Source: Thermogemmata fonticola | GTDB taxonomy: Bacteria; Planctomycetota; Planctomycetia; Gemmatales; Gemmataceae | Assembly (NCBI RefSeq): GCF_013694095.1 | Contig: NZ_JACEFB010000004.1 | Coordinates: 223,638-287,637 of the forward strand | Direction: 5' to 3' | Length of the DNA: 64,000 bases | Shown: one piece after another, positions 18,826 to 30,325 of the stretch | How the letters are laid out: the number at the start of each line of letters is the position of its first letter | How positions within the stretch are numbered: position 1 is the stretch's first letter | Notes under the pieces: generated by a model | What the model saw: only the letters and a program-made list of their open reading frames with translations | Told to the model about the DNA's origin: nothing | Databases searched by the model: none | Program-made: the position numbers and the translations under genes

Positions 18826-20890
<2,065 letters not shown>

Positions 20891-20931: not shown

Positions 20932-21951
20932 ATGCGATTCCCCCTTTCGCTCACCGCTGACTTGACCGCCTACATGCTGCGGCAAAAACTCCGGCGACAG
21001 CGCCGCTTCCCTTTGGTCCTGATGCTCGAACCCCTCCACGCCTGCAACCTGACCTGTACCGGCTGCGGGCGGATCCGCGAATACGAATCCACCATCCGGG
21101 AAAAACTCAGTGTGGAACAATGCCTGGAATCTGTCGATGAGGCGGGAGCACCAATCGTCAGTATCTGTGGGGGGGAACCTTTGATTTATCCTCACATTGG
21201 GGAATTGGTGCGCGGCATCTTAAAACGCCGCAAACATATCTATCTATGCACTAATGGTGTCTATCTGGAGAAGAAATTGCATTTGTTCCGCCCCACATCC
21301 CGCTTCTTTTTCAACGTCCATTTGGACGGTTTGGAAGAGACGCACGACCGGTTGGTGGAACGGCCGGGGGTGTTCCGCGCAGCCATTGCGGGAATCCAGG
21401 CAGCCAAGCGTGCCGGCTTTCTGGTCTGCACCAACACGACGGTGTACCGGGAAACGGAAATCGCCGAGATCGACGCCTTGTTCGCCTATCTGACCGAGTT
21501 GGGAGTCGATGGCTTTCTGCTGTCACCGGCTTATGGCTACGCGGCGGTGCACCGGACCAATCCCCAAGGGGCCGCGGAGATTTTCCTCACCCGCGATGAG
21601 ATTCGGGCCAAGTTCCAGCAAGCCCAGCATCTGTTTCATAAATACAAACTCACCACCTCGCCTATTTATTGGGAATTCCTCCAGGGCAAACGTGAATTGA
21701 CGTGTGCCGCCTGGGCGAGTCCTACACGCAATGTCCGCGGTTGGAAGGGACCGTGTTATCTCATCACCGATGCCCATTATGATTCTTTCCAGGACCTTAT
21801 GGAGAATACACCGTGGGAGAATTATGGCTATGGTAAGGACCCGCGGTGCGAACATTGCCTGATGCATTCGGGGTATGAGACGGCGGCGGCTTTGGGAATG
21901 AACGCCCGCCTCCGGGACGGCTGGAAGATGTTGCTATGGCAATTGACCTGA
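20932..21951 (+). CDS. hpnH: Hopanoid biosynthesis radical SAM protein HpnH
   Basis: 339 residues. HpnH is a radical SAM enzyme that joins the 5'-deoxyadenosyl radical to diploptene, forming adenosylhopane. The cluster motif is CNLTCTGC near residues 37-44, followed by SICGGEPLIYPHIGELV, RRKHIYLCTNGVYL and FFNVHLDGLEETHD. The C-terminal part carries CAAWASPTRNVRGWKGPC and CEHCLMHSGYETAA, as in family members. The independent start is supported by CACGGAGGTCTT before the ATG and by the MRFPLSLTADLTAYMLRQKL N-terminus typical of HpnH, even though the upstream frame is open through the poly-C tract. It overlaps hpnG by 16 bases. Codon use from about 21170 to 21860 is AT-richer than in the cyclase. 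Confidence 0.94.
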   Translation: MRFPLSLTADLTAYMLRQKLRRQRRFPLVLMLEPLHACNLTCTGCGRIREYESTIREKLSVEQCLESVDEAGAPIVSICGGEPLIYPHIGELVRGILKRRKHIYLCTNGVYLEKKLHLFRPTSRFFFNVHLDGLEETHDRLVERPGVFRAAIAGIQAAKRAGFLVCTNTTVYRETEIAEIDALFAYLTELGVDGFLLSPAYGYAAVHRTNPQGAAEIFLTRDEIRAKFQQAQHLFHKYKLTTSPIYWEFLQGKRELTCAAWASPTRNVRGWKGPCYLITDAHYDSFQDLMENTPWENYGYGKDPRCEHCLMHSGYETAAALGMNARLRDGWKMLLWQLT

Positions 21952-22598
21952 GCGGGCCGGTGATCGTCATTTTCTGCGCGCTGGAACGGGAGGCTGACGT
22001 CCTCCGCCGCCGCCTGCGGCACTACCGGCAGGTGCAGATTCAGACAAGCGGCATGGGTTATGCGGCAGCCCGGCAGTGTGCCGAGAGACGGTTGCAGCGG
22101 GAGCCGCGCCCCCATCTGGTCGTGGCCGCCGGCTTTTGTGGTGCTCTGCGGCCCGACCTGCGTGCGGGCGATATTGTCTGCGATGCCGCCGTGCACACTG
22201 TGCCCCACGTCCTCAGCACGCCGGAGGAAAAACAGCTCTGGGCGAAGCAAACCGCAGCCCTGGCGGTGGACCTGGAATCGGCAGCGGTGACAGAGGCCTG
22301 CCAGCGCTTCGGCGTGCCCTGCCGCGTGATCCGTTCCGTCTCCGATACCTGCAAGCAGGCGATTCCCCGCGAACTGCTCGATTGCTGGGTGGAGCAACGG
22401 CTGCGGGTGCGCAAGTTCCTCCACTGCGTGTGGCGGCGCCCCGCCCTCCTCGGCGAGTTGGTCCGGCTGGGGTGGCAAAGCCGCCGGGCCGCTCAAACCC
22501 TGGCTGCCGCCGTCGAAGATTGCGTGAAACAATTCCTGATGCGGAAAGACAAGGAGCTTTCCACGTCCCACACGCCGACTGCCCTGAATCCCCGATGA
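21936..22598 (+). CDS. hpnG: Adenosylhopane nucleoside phosphorylase HpnG
   Basis: 220 residues of the purine nucleoside phosphorylase/MTA nucleosidase family. HpnG removes adenine from adenosylhopane to give ribosylhopane, the step after HpnH. Visible features are the N-terminal VIVIFCALEREADVLRRRL, QTSGMGYAAARQCAER, VVAAGFCGALRPDLRAGDIV, the active-site region AVDLESAAVTEACQRFGVPC and RVIRSVSDT. Its ATG lies inside the last codons of hpnH (16-base overlap), indicating translational coupling. It converges with leuS, whose stop lies 84 bases downstream. Confidence 0.9.
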   Translation: MAIDLSGPVIVIFCALEREADVLRRRLRHYRQVQIQTSGMGYAAARQCAERRLQREPRPHLVVAAGFCGALRPDLRAGDIVCDAAVHTVPHVLSTPEEKQLWAKQTAALAVDLESAAVTEACQRFGVPCRVIRSVSDTCKQAIPRELLDCWVEQRLRVRKFLHCVWRRPALLGELVRLGWQSRRAAQTLAAAVEDCVKQFLMRKDKELSTSHTPTALNPR

Positions 22599-22618
22599 GC
22601 CTGCTCCGAACCCCCGAA

Positions 22619-22661
22619 GATGCCTGAGCGATCCTCGCGAGGATGCCTGGGCGATCCTCGC
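22619..22661. repeat. 23-base tandem duplication between hpnG and leuS, with palindrome
   Basis: Two copies of GATGCCTGRGCGATCCTCGC start at 22619 and 22642. The junction forms the perfect palindrome ATCCTCGCGAGGAT (22631-22644). Placed between convergent genes, it may serve as a bidirectional terminator, though no T tract is present. Confidence 0.6.
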
Positions 22662-22681: not shown

Positions 22682-25489
22682 CTAGGCCACGACGATGTTG
22701 ACGAGCCGACCGGGGACGACTTTGACCATCTTGACCGTCTTACCGGCTATGTGGGATTGGACTTGGGGATCGGCCAGGGCCGCGGCTTGAACGGCGGCCT
22801 CGTCGCTGTCGGCGGCCACGCGCAGGCGGGAACGCACCTTGCCGTTGATCTGGATCGGGATTTCGATCTCCTCTTCGCGGAGCAATTCGGGATCGTAAGT
22901 CGGCCAGGGTTCATACGCCAGGGACTGGGCATGGCCCAGGATGCGCCACAGTTCCTCGGCGATGTGGGGGGCGTAGGGCGAGAGCAACAGGACGAAGGTT
23001 TGCAACACCTGCCGCGGCCGGACGCTGAGCCGGGTCAGGTGATTGACGAACTCCATCATGGCAGCGATGGCCGTGTTGAACCGCAGGGCTTCGGTGTCCT
23101 CGGTCACTTTGCGGATGGTGCGGTGGAGGAGGCGGAGGGTCTCCCGATCCGGGGGGACATCCTGGACGGCAGGATGCAGCACGGCTTGCTCGGCCGCTTC
23201 ATCGACGATCAAGCGCCAGACACGACAGAGGAAGCGATAGACCCCTTCCACGCCGCGGGTGTTCCAGGGTTTGACCGCCTCCAGCGGCCCCATGAACATT
23301 TCGTAGAGGCGCAGGCTGTCGGCGCCGTACTCCCGGACGATGTCATCGGGGTTGATGACGTTGCCGCGGCTCTTGGACATTTTGTCCGCCCGCCCGGTGA
23401 GTTCCAGGTCCGTCCCCTTGAGGAACATCTTTCCTTTGCGTTTTTCGACCATTTCCTCCGGCAGTGTCAGCCATTTGCCATCGACCCCGGCGACTTTGAG
23501 GACGTAGCTCGCCTCCGCGCCGCCGTCGTCCTTGCCTTCGCGCAGAACGGCCCGGATGCCCATCGCTTCCAGCTTTGGGCGGTAGCGTTCATAGTCCGCC
23601 GGGGTGATGTGGTATTCGTATTCCCCCAGGATCATGCCCTGATTGACGAGGCGCTGGAATGGTTCCGGGCAGGGGACGTAGCCGCGGTCGTAGAGGACCT
23701 TGTGCCAGAAGCGGGCATAGAGCAGGTGCAGTACGGCATGTTCCGCGCCGCCGACGTAGAGGTCCACCGGCAGCCAGTAGCGGAGTTTGTCCGGATCGGC
23801 GAACTGCTCATCATTGTGGGGGTCGATGTAGCGGAGGTAGTACCAGCAGGAGCCGGCCCATTGGGGCATGGTGTTGGTTTCGCGGCGGTATTTTTTGCCG
23901 TTACGGAGGACTTCGACCCAATCTTTGGCTTTGGCCAGGGGTCCTTCCGGGGAGCCGGTGGGGCGGAAGTCTTCCAGCTCGGGGGGTAGGAGGGGCAGCT
24001 CGCTGGGGGAAAGCGGCAGGACTTCGCCATCTTCGCCGTGGAGGATGGGGAAGGGTTCGCCCCAGTAGCGCTGGCGGCTGAAAAGCCAGTCACGCAGCTT
24101 GTACTGTACGCGCCGCTGACCCAGCCCCTGAGCTTGCAGCCATTCGATCATCCGCTCCTTGGCCTGGGGCGTGGGCAAGCCGTTGAGGAAGTCCGAATGG
24201 ATGGAAATGCCATCCCCCACGAAGGCGGCGGTAAAGTGCTCCAGGGTACTGCCGGTCTGCTGGAGCCATTCGGGCGGCGGCTGCACGACCGGGACGATCG
24301 GCAAGCCATACTGGCGAGCAAAGGCATAGTCCCGTTCGTCGTGGGCCGGCACAGCCATGATGGCGCCGGTGCCATAGCTGGCGAGTACGTAATCCGCGAT
24401 CCAGATCGGGATTTTCTGGCCGTTGACCGGGTTGATGGCGTAGGCGCCGGTGAAGACGCCTGTTTTTTCCTTGGCGATTTCCGTGCGTTCCAGATCGCTT
24501 TTGCGGGCGGCCTGGGCTTGATAGGCTTCCACGGCGGCGCGCTGCGACTCCGTCGTCAGTTGTCCTACGAGGGGATGTTCCGGGGCCAGGACCATGTAGG
24601 TGGCGCCGAAGAGCGTATCCGGCCGGGTGGTGAAAACGGTAATGCGGACATCGGAGCCGGCGACGCGGAAGTGCACCTCGGCGCCTTCGCTGCGGCCGAT
24701 CCAGTTCCGCTGCATCTGCTTGATCGATTCCGGCCAGTCCACCAGCTCTAGGTCTTCGAGCAGCCGCTCGGCATAGGCAGTGATGCGGAGGAGCCACTGC
24801 CGCAGGGGTCGGCGTTCCACCGGGTAGCCGCCGCGCTCGCTCTTACCGTCGATGACTTCCTCGTTGGCCAGGACGGTCCCCAGGGCCGGGCACCAATTCA
24901 CCGGCACCTCGGCCTGATAGGCCAGGCGGTGGGCATCCTGGTAGCGGCGGATCGCCTGCGGTCCCTGGGCTTGGACTTCCGGGGGAATGGGCAGCTCGGC
25001 AATCGGCCGGCCTTTGCGCGCCACGGGATCGTACCAGGTGTCGTAGATCAGCAGGAAGATCCATTGCGTCCATTTGAAGTAGCGGGGGTCGGTCGTGTCG
25101 ATCTCCCGGTCCCAATCGTAGCTGAAGCCGAGGGACTGAATCTGGCGGCGGAAGGTAGCGATGTTTTGCTGGGTGGTGATACGGGGATGGACATTTTTCT
25201 CGATGGCATATTGCTCCGCGGGCAGGCCGTAGGCATCCCAACCCATGGGGTGAAGGACGTGGTAGCCCCGCATGCGCTTGTAACGGGCCAGGATGTCGGT
25301 GGCGGTGTAACCCTCCGGATGGCCGACGTGCAAGCCCGCCCCGCTGGGGTAGGGGAACATGTCTAGCACGTAGTATTTGGGCTTGCCCTGGACGCTTGGT
25401 TCGTTCGGCTCGGGTGTCCGAAACGTCTTTTCCCGCAGCCAGTATTCCTGCCAGCGGCGCTCGATCACCGCGGGATGATAAGTCGGCAT
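22682..25489 (-). CDS. leuS: Leucine--tRNA ligase
   Basis: 935 residues, class I aminoacyl-tRNA synthetase charging tRNA-Leu. The HIGH signature appears as [16 protein letters not shown] (about residues 50-65). The editing domain follows ([40 protein letters not shown]). The KMSKS loop is [14 protein letters not shown] near residue 705, and the C-terminal anticodon-binding part ends with [12 protein letters not shown] zinc-type cluster is not obvious. It ends at TAG (22682-22684). Upstream is the repeat-rich gap that separates it from the MFS gene on the same strand. Confidence 0.96.
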
Positions 25490-25505
25490 AGTACGCCCAC
25501 CTCAG

Positions 25506-25640
25506 GCCATTCCCATCCCATCGCTCTGGCTTGGGCCATTGCCATCCAACCGTATGGCTCAAGCCATACTGTATGGGTCAAGCGATTCCCATCCCATCGC
25601 TCTAGTTCAAGCCATTCCCATCCAATCGCATGTGAATTGG
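25506..25640. repeat. Degenerate ~29-base minisatellite upstream of leuS
   Basis: About five imperfect units like GCCATTCCCATCCCATCGCT, starting at 25506, 25535, 25563 (shortened to 19 bases), 25582 and 25611. The array begins 17 bases upstream of the leuS start, so it occupies the leader or promoter region of leuS. Confidence 0.75.
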
Positions 25641-25764
25641 CTTATGCCGAGGGGGAAAGGGTGGCTAGCGCGGCCCGGCACACCCAGGCGAACGGAACGA
25701 GCGAAGGGCAGGACCTAGGGGACAGGGGCAGGCGGTCCGGCTGGCCTACCTGCTGCTCTCCCGC

Positions 25765-25890
25765 GGTCAGGGCGGCGCGTCCCCCGGCTGGAGGCCCGCT
25801 TCGGCTGGTCAGGGCGGCGCATCCCCCGGCTGGAGGCCCGCTTCGGCCGGTCAGGGCGGCGCGTCCCCCGGCCAGAGGCCCGCTTCGGCC
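25765..25890. repeat. Three tandem 42-base repeats at the 3' end of the MFS gene
   Basis: Three copies, each 42 bases, start at 25765, 25807 and 25849, beginning GGTCAGGGCGGCGCGTCCCC. Each copy has a TGA on the minus strand at its second to fourth... bases 25851-25853 in the copy nearest the gene, which is the MFS stop codon. The other two copies lie downstream of the stop, so the C-terminal codons have been duplicated twice. Confidence 0.9.
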
Positions 25891-27401
25891 CGCTGCGTAT
25901 CCGCGTCCAGATAGTGCCGGCCCCATAGCCACAGGCCGCCGCTGACCGGAATCAGAAACGCCACGAGCAGAAACGCCGTTTGCAGGCTGGACAGGTCCGC
26001 AATCACCCCGATGATCAGCGGCGAGATGGCATCGCCGAAGGCGTGGATCACGAAGATGTTGATGGCAAAGGCCGTCGCGCGGATGGGGCTGCGGGCGACA
26101 TTGGCCAGGATCGCATTCGCCGGGCCGGTGTTGAAAAAGAGGAAGAAGACCGCGATGAAGAAGAAGACCCATCCCCACGGCAGCGGGGTGTAGAGCAAAG
26201 CGACGAAGGCGGGAAAGCCCACAATCATCCCCCCACCGGCGACCCAGAAGTACGCGCCTTTGACGCCACGATTGCGGAGATAGTCCCCGGCCAAGCCGCC
26301 AGCGAGCGTGGCGATCAGCCCTCCGACGACGACCAGGCCGCCGATGTACAGGCCGATCAGGCCGTTGGTCCAGGAACCGGGGGCGGTGGCGGTGTCGAAG
26401 ATCCAGGTGCTGTAGAGCAGGTATTCCTGCGGCGTCAGCTTCTCCTGCAAGAGCTGGCGCAATTCGGCGGCTTGCCACGATTGTCCCACGGGCAGTTGGG
26501 CCAGGCGCTCTCGCACGGCTGCAGGAACGATTTCCGTGCCGTCAGCGGTCCGCAGCGCGGCCAGTTTATCTAGGACTTCCGGCGTGATGGTGAAGCGGGC
26601 TTCCCGCTCGAACAGGTACAATTGCATCACCGTGGCCACGCCGCCGAGCACAAAGGTGGAGACCGTCATACCCGCGGAGCAGAGCACGAAGGAACGGATG
26701 CGCCCCAGTTCCCGCAGAACATCCCAGTAGGAATGGGAGGATGCCGGTTCCTGCGCCGGGGCTTCCGGGGTGGAGGGCCGCGGGGGTTCCTTCATGAAAA
26801 AGCACAGGATGCCCAGGAGGATTCCGGGCAAGACCACCACCAGAAAGGCCCAGCGCCAGCCGGCGACTTCCGCGACTTGTGCTCCGATGACGAATCCCAA
26901 AGCACTGCCCACCGGAATGGCCATGTAAAACCAGGCGAGAATCTGGCCGCGGCGCTCCACGGGATAAAGGTCCGAGAGCATGGCCGGGGCGACGGGTCCA
27001 TAGGCGGCTTCTCCGATACCGACGAGGCAGCGGGTGGCCAGGAGCATGGCGTAACCCACCGCCAGGCCGCTTCCTCCCGTGGCCAGACTCCAGACGATGA
27101 CCGCCCCGCCGACGATGCCCCAGCGCGACCAGCGGTCCCCCAGCCGGCCAAACAGCGGGGAAAAGAGCATGTAGGCGGCCATGAAGGCGGTGGTCAACGC
27201 CCCCAGCTTCGTCTGCGCCCACGGATCATCCGGGCGGAGCATCGTGGGGTCCAAGCGGATCTTTGGCAGCGTCGCCGAGAGGACCTGGCGGTCGATGTAA
27301 TTGAACAGATTGATCGCCAGGAGCAGGGCCAAAGCCCAGCCTGCACCCGCCACCGCGTGCGACGGGCTGGCGGCCGGGGAAATGCTGTCCTCCCGTTTCA
27401 T
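25851..27401 (-). CDS. MFS transporter, spinster-like
   Basis: 516 residues with about twelve hydrophobic segments. The first helix region is ALLLAINLFNYIDRQVLSAT, followed by the MFS motif-A variant LFGRLGDRWSRWG and the conserved GIGEAAYGPVAPAMLSDLYP. This matches the spinster/hexuronate-type branch. An extended hydrophilic segment of about 80 residues (about 270-350, LDKLAALRTADGTEIVPAAV, LLQEKLTPQEYLLY) interrupts the region after the central helices, longer than usual for the family. The substrate is unknown; sphingolipid-like lipids and organic anions are known for relatives. Tandem-repeat arrays flank both ends of the gene. Confidence 0.86.
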   Translation of the reverse strand: MKREDSISPAASPSHAVAGAGWALALLLAINLFNYIDRQVLSATLPKIRLDPTMLRPDDPWAQTKLGALTTAFMAAYMLFSPLFGRLGDRWSRWGIVGGAVIVWSLATGGSGLAVGYAMLLATRCLVGIGEAAYGPVAPAMLSDLYPVERRGQILAWFYMAIPVGSALGFVIGAQVAEVAGWRWAFLVVVLPGILLGILCFFMKEPPRPSTPEAPAQEPASSHSYWDVLRELGRIRSFVLCSAGMTVSTFVLGGVATVMQLYLFEREARFTITPEVLDKLAALRTADGTEIVPAAVRERLAQLPVGQSWQAAELRQLLQEKLTPQEYLLYSTWIFDTATAPGSWTNGLIGLYIGGLVVVGGLIATLAGGLAGDYLRNRGVKGAYFWVAGGGMIVGFPAFVALLYTPLPWGWVFFFIAVFFLFFNTGPANAILANVARSPIRATAFAINIFVIHAFGDAISPLIIGVIADLSSLQTAFLLVAFLIPVSGGLWLWGRHYLDADTQRAEAGLWPGDAPP

Positions 27402-27421
27402 GCTGCCTCTCCGCTTGACTA

Positions 27422-27480
27422 CTATGTTCTTTCCGCTGGGTTGCTACCTTCTTTCCGCTTGGCCGCTACGTTCTGTTTTG
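27422..27480. repeat. 22-base tandem repeat upstream of the MFS gene
   Basis: Units starting CTATGTTCTTTCCGCTGGGT at 27422, CTACCTTCTTTCCGCTTGGC at 27444 and a partial third at 27466. They lie 21 bases upstream of the MFS ATG (which reads leftward), so they occupy its leader or promoter. Confidence 0.7.
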
Positions 27481-27507
27481 GCACGGCGTTGCCCACCCTA
27501 GCCCGGC

Positions 27508-27616
27508 GGATGTTTCCTTGCGGATGCTGCCCCGTGGATGTTTCCTTGCGGATGCTGCCCCGTGGATGTTTCCTTGCGGATGCTGCCCCGTGGATGTTTC
27601 CTTGCGGATGCTGCCC
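27508..27616. repeat. 28-base tandem repeat, about 3.9 copies
   Basis: Copies of a unit starting GGATGTTTCCTTGCGGATGC begin at 27508, 27536, 27564 and 27592, essentially identical. The unit has an internal near-repeat (GGATGTTTCC / GGATGCTGCC). Copies are directly adjacent, with no spacers. Confidence 0.92.
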
Positions 27617-27864
27617 GATAGACGGAGAGCGCCGCGCCTGGAGAACGCCAAGGTGCGGAAGATGCCACGATGACTGACACGATAACGGTTCCCTCCGTTC
27701 ATGTCGAGGGGGGATGAAATCGCCCTGACGGCCGGGGGGTGGCGAGGGCGGAGGCGGAAGAAGGGAGTGGTAGGCCGGACCTGGCGAAGCGGAAACCTCA
27801 ACGGGAAAGCGAGGCGCCAGGGCGGATGGGGCGCGCACGAAAGGGAAGAGGTGTCCGCTTCTGG

Positions 27865-29403
27865 TTAGCGGGTCCAGAGGCGGCGGTCCAAGGCGCGGTA
27901 GGCGATGGCTTCGGCGACATGTTCGGCGCGGATCGGCTCCGCTTCTTGCAGATCGGCGATCGTGCGGGCGACCCGGAGGATGCGGTCGTGGGCGCGGGCG
28001 GAAAGTCCCAGGGTTTCGACCGCATGCTTGAGGACGGCCTGGCCGTGGGAGTCGAGGCGGCAATACTGGCGGATTTGCCGAGGGGTCATCCGGCCGTTGA
28101 GCAGCCCCGCGCCGGGTCCGAAACGGCGGGCTTGCACGGTGCGGGCGACTTCCACCAGGCGGCGGAGAGCGGCGCTGCTGGTCCCCTCGGCACTGCCCGC
28201 AAGGTCTTCATACGGCACGGGAGGAACCTCGATGTGCAAGTCGATGCGATCGAGTAAGGGGCCGGAAATCCGTCCCAGGTACTTGTCGATGGCCAGGGGG
28301 GAACATTTGCAGGGGCGCTTCGGATCGCCGAGGTAGCCGCAGGGGCAGGGATTCATGGCGGCGACCAGGATGAAATTGGCGGGGAAAGTGGCAGCATGGG
28401 CAGCGCGGCTGATCGTGACGCGCCCTTCTTCCAGCGGCTGGCGAAGGGCTTCGAGACTGCGGCGGTGGAACTCCGGCAACTCATCCAAAAACAGCACGCC
28501 GTGATGGGCCAGGGAGATTTCCCCCGGTTGGGGCAGGGTTCCGCCGCCGACCATGCCGGCATCGCTGATGGTATGATGGGGACTGCGGAAAGGACGGGTG
28601 CTGAGCAAGGCCTGGCCGCCGGGCAAACAGCCGCAGGCCGAATAGATGCGGGTCGTCTCCAGGCTCTCCTCCGGCGTCAACGGCGGCAGAATCGTGGGCA
28701 GGCGGCGGGCGAGCATGGTCTTACCGCTGCCGGGACTGCCCAGCATCAGGACATTGTGCCCCCCAGCCGCCGCGATCACCAGAGCACGCTTGGCAAACTC
28801 CTGCCCTTTGACATCTGCGAAGTCCACGTCATAGCGATTGAGGGAGCCTGCGATCTCCTCCACCGGCGGGGCGACGGGTTCGAGGCGGATACGTCTGTTG
28901 AGCAGACCCACGGCCTCAGCGAGCGAGCGGACGCCGAAGACCTCCAGATCGCGGACCACCGCGGCTTCCCGGCCGTTGCTCTGCGGGACAATCAAACGGC
29001 GTAAACCCCGCTGCCGTGCTTCCATCGCCATCGACAGGACACCGGCGACAGGCCGCACGTTGCCATCCAAGGCCAGCTCCCCGACGGCTGCGCTTCCTTC
29101 GAGGTCCTCTGGACGGACCTGGCCCGTCGCCACGAGGATGCCCAGCGCAATGGGCAGATCAAAAGCCCCGGCATCCTTGCGCAGCTCGGCGGGAGCCAGA
29201 TTGATGATCGTCCGCCCCGTCGGCAGGTAATACCCCAGATTGACCAGGGCACGCTCGATGCGATGGACGCTTTCGCGAACAGTCAATTCCGGCAGGCCGA
29301 CCAGCACCGTCTTCTGGACCTGGGCCGGCGCGGTATCCACTTCCACATCGACAGGAACAGCGTCGATGCCGAGCAAAGCGAAGGTGCGCAAGCGAGCCAG
29401 CAT
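27865..29403 (-). CDS. comM: ComM/YifB family Mg-chelatase-like AAA+ ATPase
   Basis: 512 residues from the ATG giving MLARLRTFALLGIDAVPVDV, preceded by ATCAGGAGAAGGGA; the open frame extends 79 codons further upstream without family similarity. The N-terminal S5-like domain has VLVGLPELTVRESVHRIERA and TGRTIINLAPAELRKDAGAF. The AAA+ core carries Walker A MLGSPGSGKTMLA, VLFLDELPEFHRRSLEALRQ and the Cys cluster MNPCPCGYLGDPKRPCKC. In naturally competent bacteria ComM is a hexameric helicase that drives branch migration in transformation recombination; in others its role is less clear. No competence genes are adjacent. Confidence 0.93.
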   Translation of the reverse strand: MLARLRTFALLGIDAVPVDVEVDTAPAQVQKTVLVGLPELTVRESVHRIERALVNLGYYLPTGRTIINLAPAELRKDAGAFDLPIALGILVATGQVRPEDLEGSAAVGELALDGNVRPVAGVLSMAMEARQRGLRRLIVPQSNGREAAVVRDLEVFGVRSLAEAVGLLNRRIRLEPVAPPVEEIAGSLNRYDVDFADVKGQEFAKRALVIAAAGGHNVLMLGSPGSGKTMLARRLPTILPPLTPEESLETTRIYSACGCLPGGQALLSTRPFRSPHHTISDAGMVGGGTLPQPGEISLAHHGVLFLDELPEFHRRSLEALRQPLEEGRVTISRAAHAATFPANFILVAAMNPCPCGYLGDPKRPCKCSPLAIDKYLGRISGPLLDRIDLHIEVPPVPYEDLAGSAEGTSSAALRRLVEVARTVQARRFGPGAGLLNGRMTPRQIRQYCRLDSHGQAVLKHAVETLGLSARAHDRILRVARTIADLQEAEPIRAEHVAEAIAYRALDRRLWTR

Positions 29404-29581
29404 TCCCTTCTCCTGATCCTTTCCGGCCGGCGTAGCGATGGCATCCTCGGCTGCTCCTGCCCCCCGCTTCCCCGGTTGTCCTGGTCCTGTCACAGCGGGA
29501 GGCGGACGTTCCCCCAACAGTTCGGATGATCCGCACCCCCTAAGAAACCCCAGGGGAGGAACCAGGGCCGGCCCAGGCGGA

Positions 29582-30325
29582 TCACTTGAGCTTGAGCCGT
29601 TCCGGCGGCCGATACTCCACAAACAGGCGGCGGAGAGCAAAGCGCAAGCAGGGCACGAAAATCCCCAGCGAGATGAAGGCGATCAGGAAGATGAAGGCCC
29701 CCGGAGCGATGTAGAAACGCTTGCGCCCGGCGGCGTCCACTTCATCCATTTCCAGAAAAGTGCCTTCCAGCCAACTACGCATGTTGGTCGCCGTGATGTA
29801 GTTGAGCACAATCAAACCGATGCAGACCAGGACCGCAATGATGCCCGGCGCGAGATGCATCGCCCATTCGGAAAAAGTGGGGGCGTAGACTTTGCGTGTG
29901 TCGGCCTTGACGCGCGTGCGGTTGTTGAACCCGCAATGGATGCAGACGATCGCATCGGGGGGAACCAGCTCCATCGCGCAGTGCGGGCAGCGCGGCACAT
30001 CCTTTTCTTCTACGACTCCGACCTGGGCCACGCCTTCGTCGTCATCGTCGAAGGGCCGCTTGGGGCGAGGGGCGGACTCCGGTGCGGTCGCAGGGGTAGA
30101 AGCCGCCGGTGAGGCGGGGCGGGCCGCTGCCGAAGGACGAGATGCTGCCGGAGCCGCGGGACGAGGCGACGCTTGGCCTTGGCTCGCTTCCGCGCTGGCT
30201 CCTCTTGCCGGTACCGCAAACACTTGCTGGCATTTGCTGCACTTGATCCGCTTGCCGGCCACATTCTCCGGCACCCGTAAAGCGGTCTGGCAATGCGGAC
30301 AGCGGGTGACAATACCTCCAGCCAT
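29582..30325 (-). CDS. Zinc-ribbon membrane protein, hypothetical
   Basis: 247 residues. An MJ0042-like zinc ribbon opens the protein (TRCPHCQTALRVPENVAGK then IKCSKCQQVF). An Ala/Pro/Ser-rich linker (about residues 45-105) leads to a second ribbon, RCPHCAMELVPPD followed by CIHCGFN. Two hydrophobic segments follow (LAPGIIAVLVCIGLIVLNYI and FIFLIAFISLGIFVPCL). This layout is common in Planctomycetes and of unknown role. The start has TAGGGAAGGTAGC before the ATG. It is divergent from the glycosyltransferase gene, with an inverted repeat between them. Confidence 0.8.
   Translation of the reverse strand: MAGGIVTRCPHCQTALRVPENVAGKRIKCSKCQQVFAVPARGASAEASQGQASPRPAAPAASRPSAAARPASPAASTPATAPESAPRPKRPFDDDDEGVAQVGVVEEKDVPRCPHCAMELVPPDAIVCIHCGFNNRTRVKADTRKVYAPTFSEWAMHLAPGIIAVLVCIGLIVLNYITATNMRSWLEGTFLEMDEVDAAGRKRFYIAPGAFIFLIAFISLGIFVPCLRFALRRLFVEYRPPERLKLK

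Follow-up and report, generated by a model that had tools for sequence, protein, structure and literature searches.

Comparison with known bacterial minisatellites

Tandem arrays in the spacers between bacterial genes have precedents in the literature excerpts that we consulted, which held none on arrays in this genus. At ETR-F/VNTR3239, upstream of Mtb-fpg1, the excerpted report links repeat length to expression (PMC2734929). According to the excerpt of a survey of prokaryotic satellites, dispersed families are rare and most long-repeat satellites are found in coding genes (PMC6749651). The four arrays described here, which surround a transporter gene, share with bacterial intergenic minisatellites (VNTR loci) their head-to-tail units of 22 to 42 bp, their two to four copies, their position in spacers and a unit specific to its place; in our comparison, each species is represented by one genome. 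Like ETR-F/VNTR3239 in the excerpt, our locus has tandem repeats in a spacer ahead of a gene, but there isolate variation and expression were measured (PMC2734929), whereas the arrays at our locus were described from sequence and are absent in the sister species G001. The arrays of our genome resemble the satellites in the survey excerpt in being short and in the rarity of dispersed families; those satellites are mostly coding whereas many arrays in our sample are non-coding, with thresholds that differ and rates that are not comparable (PMC6749651).

Four arrays in the comM-MFS-leuS series

The window, i.e., the whole stretch of 64,000 nucleotides that was analysed, comes from contig G000:C4 of a planctomycete genome of 4.8 Mb, which is assembled in 61 contigs (the host genome). 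The transporter gene (25851-27401, 516 aa) belongs to a codirectional series, all on the minus strand, between the gene of a comM/yifB-type Mg-chelatase-like AAA ATPase (27865-29640, an ORF of 591 aa whose actual start is probably further downstream than the ORF start) and leuS (22682-25489), coding for a leucine--tRNA ligase of 935 aa. The four arrays occupy the two spacers of this series. The transporter matches Pfam MFS_1 (PF07690) at 139 bits against a cut-off of 33.4, which places it in the major facilitator superfamily (MFS). Among solved structures, those of spinster-type (SPNS) transporters are the nearest to it, and the closest relatives found come from Gemmataceae and other Planctomycetota.

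Directly upstream of leuS lies a degenerate array of 29-bp units (25501-25632). TRF called only its first part (25501-25567, 2.3 copies at 74%, score 78), and a block comparison extended it to about 25632 by a 55-nt two-unit block that occurs twice, 76 bp apart and 82% identical, with a shortened copy (seen by eye) between both blocks; the unit has three matches in the array at 0-1 mismatch. Given these blocks and the shortened copy, the earlier description of five degenerate copies was fair. The 42-bp array (25764-25890; TRF, 3.0 copies, 92%, score 226) takes in the final 40 bases of the MFS ORF, including the TGA stop codon, and on the MFS strand (minus) it translates as ...RAEAGLWPGDAPP*PAEAGLQPGDAPP*PAEAGLQPGDAPP*. 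The final 14 codons of the gene, stop included, are thus present three times in one frame, copies 2 and 3 lying past the real stop. On the other side of the gene, TRF found a 22-bp array of 2.2 copies in the MFS leader (27427-27474, score 68) and a 28-bp array of 4.1 copies in the comM-MFS spacer (27501-27616, 97%, score 218). The latter has an inner half-period of 14 bp; its copies 2 to 4 are identical and one copy has two differences.

The arrays are therefore present around the MFS gene as the sequence-only reading had reported, and by TRF they are stronger than what shuffled sequence yields: in 464 kb (the window and 20 further stretches) we found 77 arrays with a score of at least 50, 57 of at least 60 and 37 of at least 75, against 3, 1 and 0 in order-1 shuffles of the same DNA. 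They consist of contiguous head-to-tail units in the 10-100 bp range beyond chance, as minisatellites do, and the copies of the 42-bp and 28-bp arrays adjoin each other with no unlike spacers between them, unlike those of a CRISPR array. The four arrays are a real yet ordinary feature, minisatellites of a known type. Their placement in the leaders of leuS and of the transporter, also proposed from the sequence, holds for the 29-bp array upstream of leuS, the 22-bp array in the MFS leader and the 28-bp array in the comM-MFS spacer, and fails for the 42-bp array, which overlaps the MFS 3' end.

Origin of the arrays

G001, a species of the same genus, keeps the order and strand of comM, MFS and leuS (80%, 82% and 88% identical to those of the host), and its two spacers hold no arrays, in an assembly that is fragmented, which can lose arrays. 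Both flanks of 15 of the 112 arrays in our genome sample (described below) were present in the G001 DNA that was fetched, 8 of them in spacers and 7 in coding sequence. None of the eight spacer arrays was matched by an array there (five of the eight are those of this locus and of the next spacer), and a single coding array had one in the matching stretch, of a different period. Remains of the leader arrays in G001 were also sought: for leuS, the best shared stretch was an 11-mer, equalled in 87 of 500 shuffles, and for the MFS leader there was nothing (374 of 500 as good). We also inspected 32 MFS loci of relatives, among which some genomes occur twice (L002 and L019 certainly) and most of which had about 1.5 kb of flank, so that a more distant leuS or comM would be missed. 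In 12 of these, leuS was in view, and at one (L034) a weak array of 16-bp units separated MFS from leuS; at 10 of the 32, the flanks of the MFS gene contained some array.

The 42-bp array gives the clearest view of how such a repeat began. In our own reading of the sequence, the MFS gene of G001 ends in ...RAEAGLKPY, and the start of the 42-bp unit has 16 of 17 nucleotides in common with that gene end (1 of 500 shuffles was as good); therefore, the array derives from the end of the gene itself. A segment from inside the MFS gene to just past its stop would have been duplicated twice. Since the first copy holds the frame and the stop codon, a duplication of this kind leaves the protein unchanged, and the event would persist as near-neutral. 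Considering its inner 14-bp half-repeat and its three identical copies, the 28-bp array was probably a small duplication that was amplified later, and the three identical copies could also reflect selection.

Four arrays so close together might suggest that a dispersed family of MIRU-like or REP-like repeats was inserted at the locus, and one unit would then be expected at many sites of the genome. Instead, with up to three mismatches allowed, the 29-bp and 28-bp units had no other site in the 4.8-Mb genome, bar one match of the 29-bp unit at three mismatches, and the whole 2.9-kb stretch searched against the genome matched only itself. There were no cross matches either among 40 spacer units (period of at least 18) of the genome sample, and the 42-bp unit is the tail of the host gene itself. 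We rejected this explanation, which we regard as highly implausible, because the units searched are local only and the sampled spacer units are unrelated. The scattering of the same units over the genome, named in advance as what would speak against a link with this gene, was accordingly not found for the 29-bp and 28-bp units.

It seems likely that each of the four arrays is a lineage-specific minisatellite that originated recently and separately at its present site, by tandem duplication tolerated under the weak constraint on the spacers of the comM-MFS-leuS series. Each would have begun with one tandem duplication, caused by replication slippage or by recombination at short homologies, and would have grown by slippage afterwards. 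Repeated local slippage, one of the two readings first offered from the sequence, fits well: the arrays are absent from the corresponding places of G001, the two units searched are confined to the locus, and one array is the gene's own 3' end. Spacer arrays of this kind would be ready typing markers for the lineage.

Possible regulatory roles

The other reading was that the number of 28-bp and 29-bp copies could tune the expression of MFS and leuS, acting through spacing, the structure of the leader RNA or binding sites that are repeated. The 28-bp array does lie between a weak promoter-like match (27707-27679, 9/12) and the MFS start, its copies 2 to 4 are identical, the leuS leader has a slightly better fold than its shuffles (z -1.95; 7 of 200 as good), and the excerpt on Mtb-fpg1 offers a precedent (PMC2734929). 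However, G001 does without the arrays despite the kept genes and order, the MFS leader folds at a z of only -1.05, a search of positions 25400-27900 against Rfam returned no match up to an E value of 1, and divergent spacers have the lowest array density in the genome sample. With leaders that fold little or no better than shuffles and arrays that favor 3' ends over promoter-bearing spacers, tuning by copy number lacks support and is unlikely. A regulatory RNA in the leaders was rejected, given the weak folds and the lack of an Rfam match. We also dropped a leuS attenuator with leucine codons, since the short ORFs in the 29-bp units have few of these (by eye). Terminator-like matches in the 28-bp units were discounted as evidence, since the genes are on the other strand and the array itself multiplies the matches.

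The GC-rich 42-bp units directly at the MFS 3' end could instead be thought to form an RNA structure, a terminator or stabiliser of the MFS message. This is very improbable and was rejected, as the 42-bp stretch folds worse than all of 200 shuffles (z +3.08) and a terminator search at the array found no terminator-like site.

Array density in the genome

Our sample of the host genome comprised 864 kb, i.e., the window, chosen for its cluster of arrays, and 40 further stretches, with genes called by a home-made hexamer caller. Of its 112 arrays, 59 were mostly coding and 53 were mostly in spacers (143.8 kb), or 3.69 spacer arrays per 10 kb, compared with 1.33 in G001 (8 in 60.4 kb of spacer; p 0.0045), a gap to which assembly quality may contribute. 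We rejected a missing MutS or SbcD as an explanation of the higher density, since genes of both types were found in both genomes. Four other genomes of the family, at 100 kb each, had 3, 2, 0 and 6 spacer arrays. One of these, G087, was denser than the host at a score of 50 (4.74 spacer arrays per 10 kb), with one of its six spacer arrays reaching a score of 75 as against 28 of the 53 in the host sample.

Four unrelated periods around one gene had been called unusual from the sequence. When the 50 arrays in spacers between two called genes were scattered at random, some gene had at least four arrays in 457 of 5,000 trials (9%), and the claim is therefore not supported. The true surprise is smaller than 9% suggests, because the sample includes the window, which was picked for its cluster, and because the entire genome is 5.6 times as large as the sample. 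Spacers with two arrays numbered 6 where 3.7 were expected (p 0.15), and clustering is not clear. A striking cluster of repeats can thus be the tail of a genome-wide background. A second cluster was seen in the same genome, with four arrays within 1 kb (L074, 10060-11022; periods 30, 21, 30 and 21). Elsewhere (L079, 1466-1811 and 6053-6630), two large 126-bp arrays lie about 4 kb apart with units that look related, by eye, in opposite orientation.

Placement of arrays at gene ends

In the 864-kb sample, arrays per 10 kb of spacer were 7.7 in convergent, 4.2 in codirectional and 1.45 in divergent spacers. Convergent spacers held 14 arrays in 18.2 kb and divergent ones 6 in 41.5 kb, a difference that holds under three models of the gene start (p 1.8e-4 to 3.2e-4). 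Stop codons were crossed by nine arrays and starts by 0, 2 or 1, depending on the start model, with about 6.5 expected for each; the deficit at starts is a larger effect than the slight excess at stops. The 3'-end bias is weak within codirectional spacers because the positions are spread there: 17 of 30 arrays lie in the half adjoining the upstream stop and the other 13 in that adjoining the downstream start.

Such a distribution is expected if neutral duplications are tolerated and runs opposite to what a general tuning of leaders would give, and it is compatible with tuning at MFS alone. A duplication at a gene start would place a second start and ribosome site upstream, with harm likelier, and we infer that selection against promoter disturbance pushed the arrays towards gene ends. 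From the measured bias of spacer arrays for the 3' ends of genes and against their starts, one can predict the places at which tandem duplications are tolerated and build up. More speculatively, and with little confidence, the lineage may be in a burst of minisatellite birth at gene 3' ends, in which gene-internal duplications running past the stop repeatedly copy the stop codon and the bias may reflect slippage provoked by transcription termination or converging transcription, and not only selection against promoter damage.

Two further sites with arrays at gene ends were noticed. In the window, double arrays of 22/23 bp (22579-22661) run across the stop codon of a gene at 21936-22598; they lie in the convergent spacer that faces the leuS 3' end and are a further case of the 3'-end bias. 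In another stretch (L124, 9620-9703), a 28-bp array of three copies (98%) extends over the stop codons of two genes that converge.

A C50 run between shc and hpnH

A different kind of repeat was observed in the window, an uninterrupted run of 50 C (20771-20820, within a site at 20765-20820), which fuses shc (squalene-hopene cyclase) and hpnH into a frame of 1041 aa via poly-proline. G001 had no run of at least 18 C when searched, and an ordinary spacer separates shc from hpnH there. In the host, it is the only homopolymer of at least 12 in the 864-kb sample and the only run of at least 18 C in the genome. The run is an artefact of the assembly or else an extreme case of a length-variable tract, and its joining of shc to hpnH is stranger than the four arrays.
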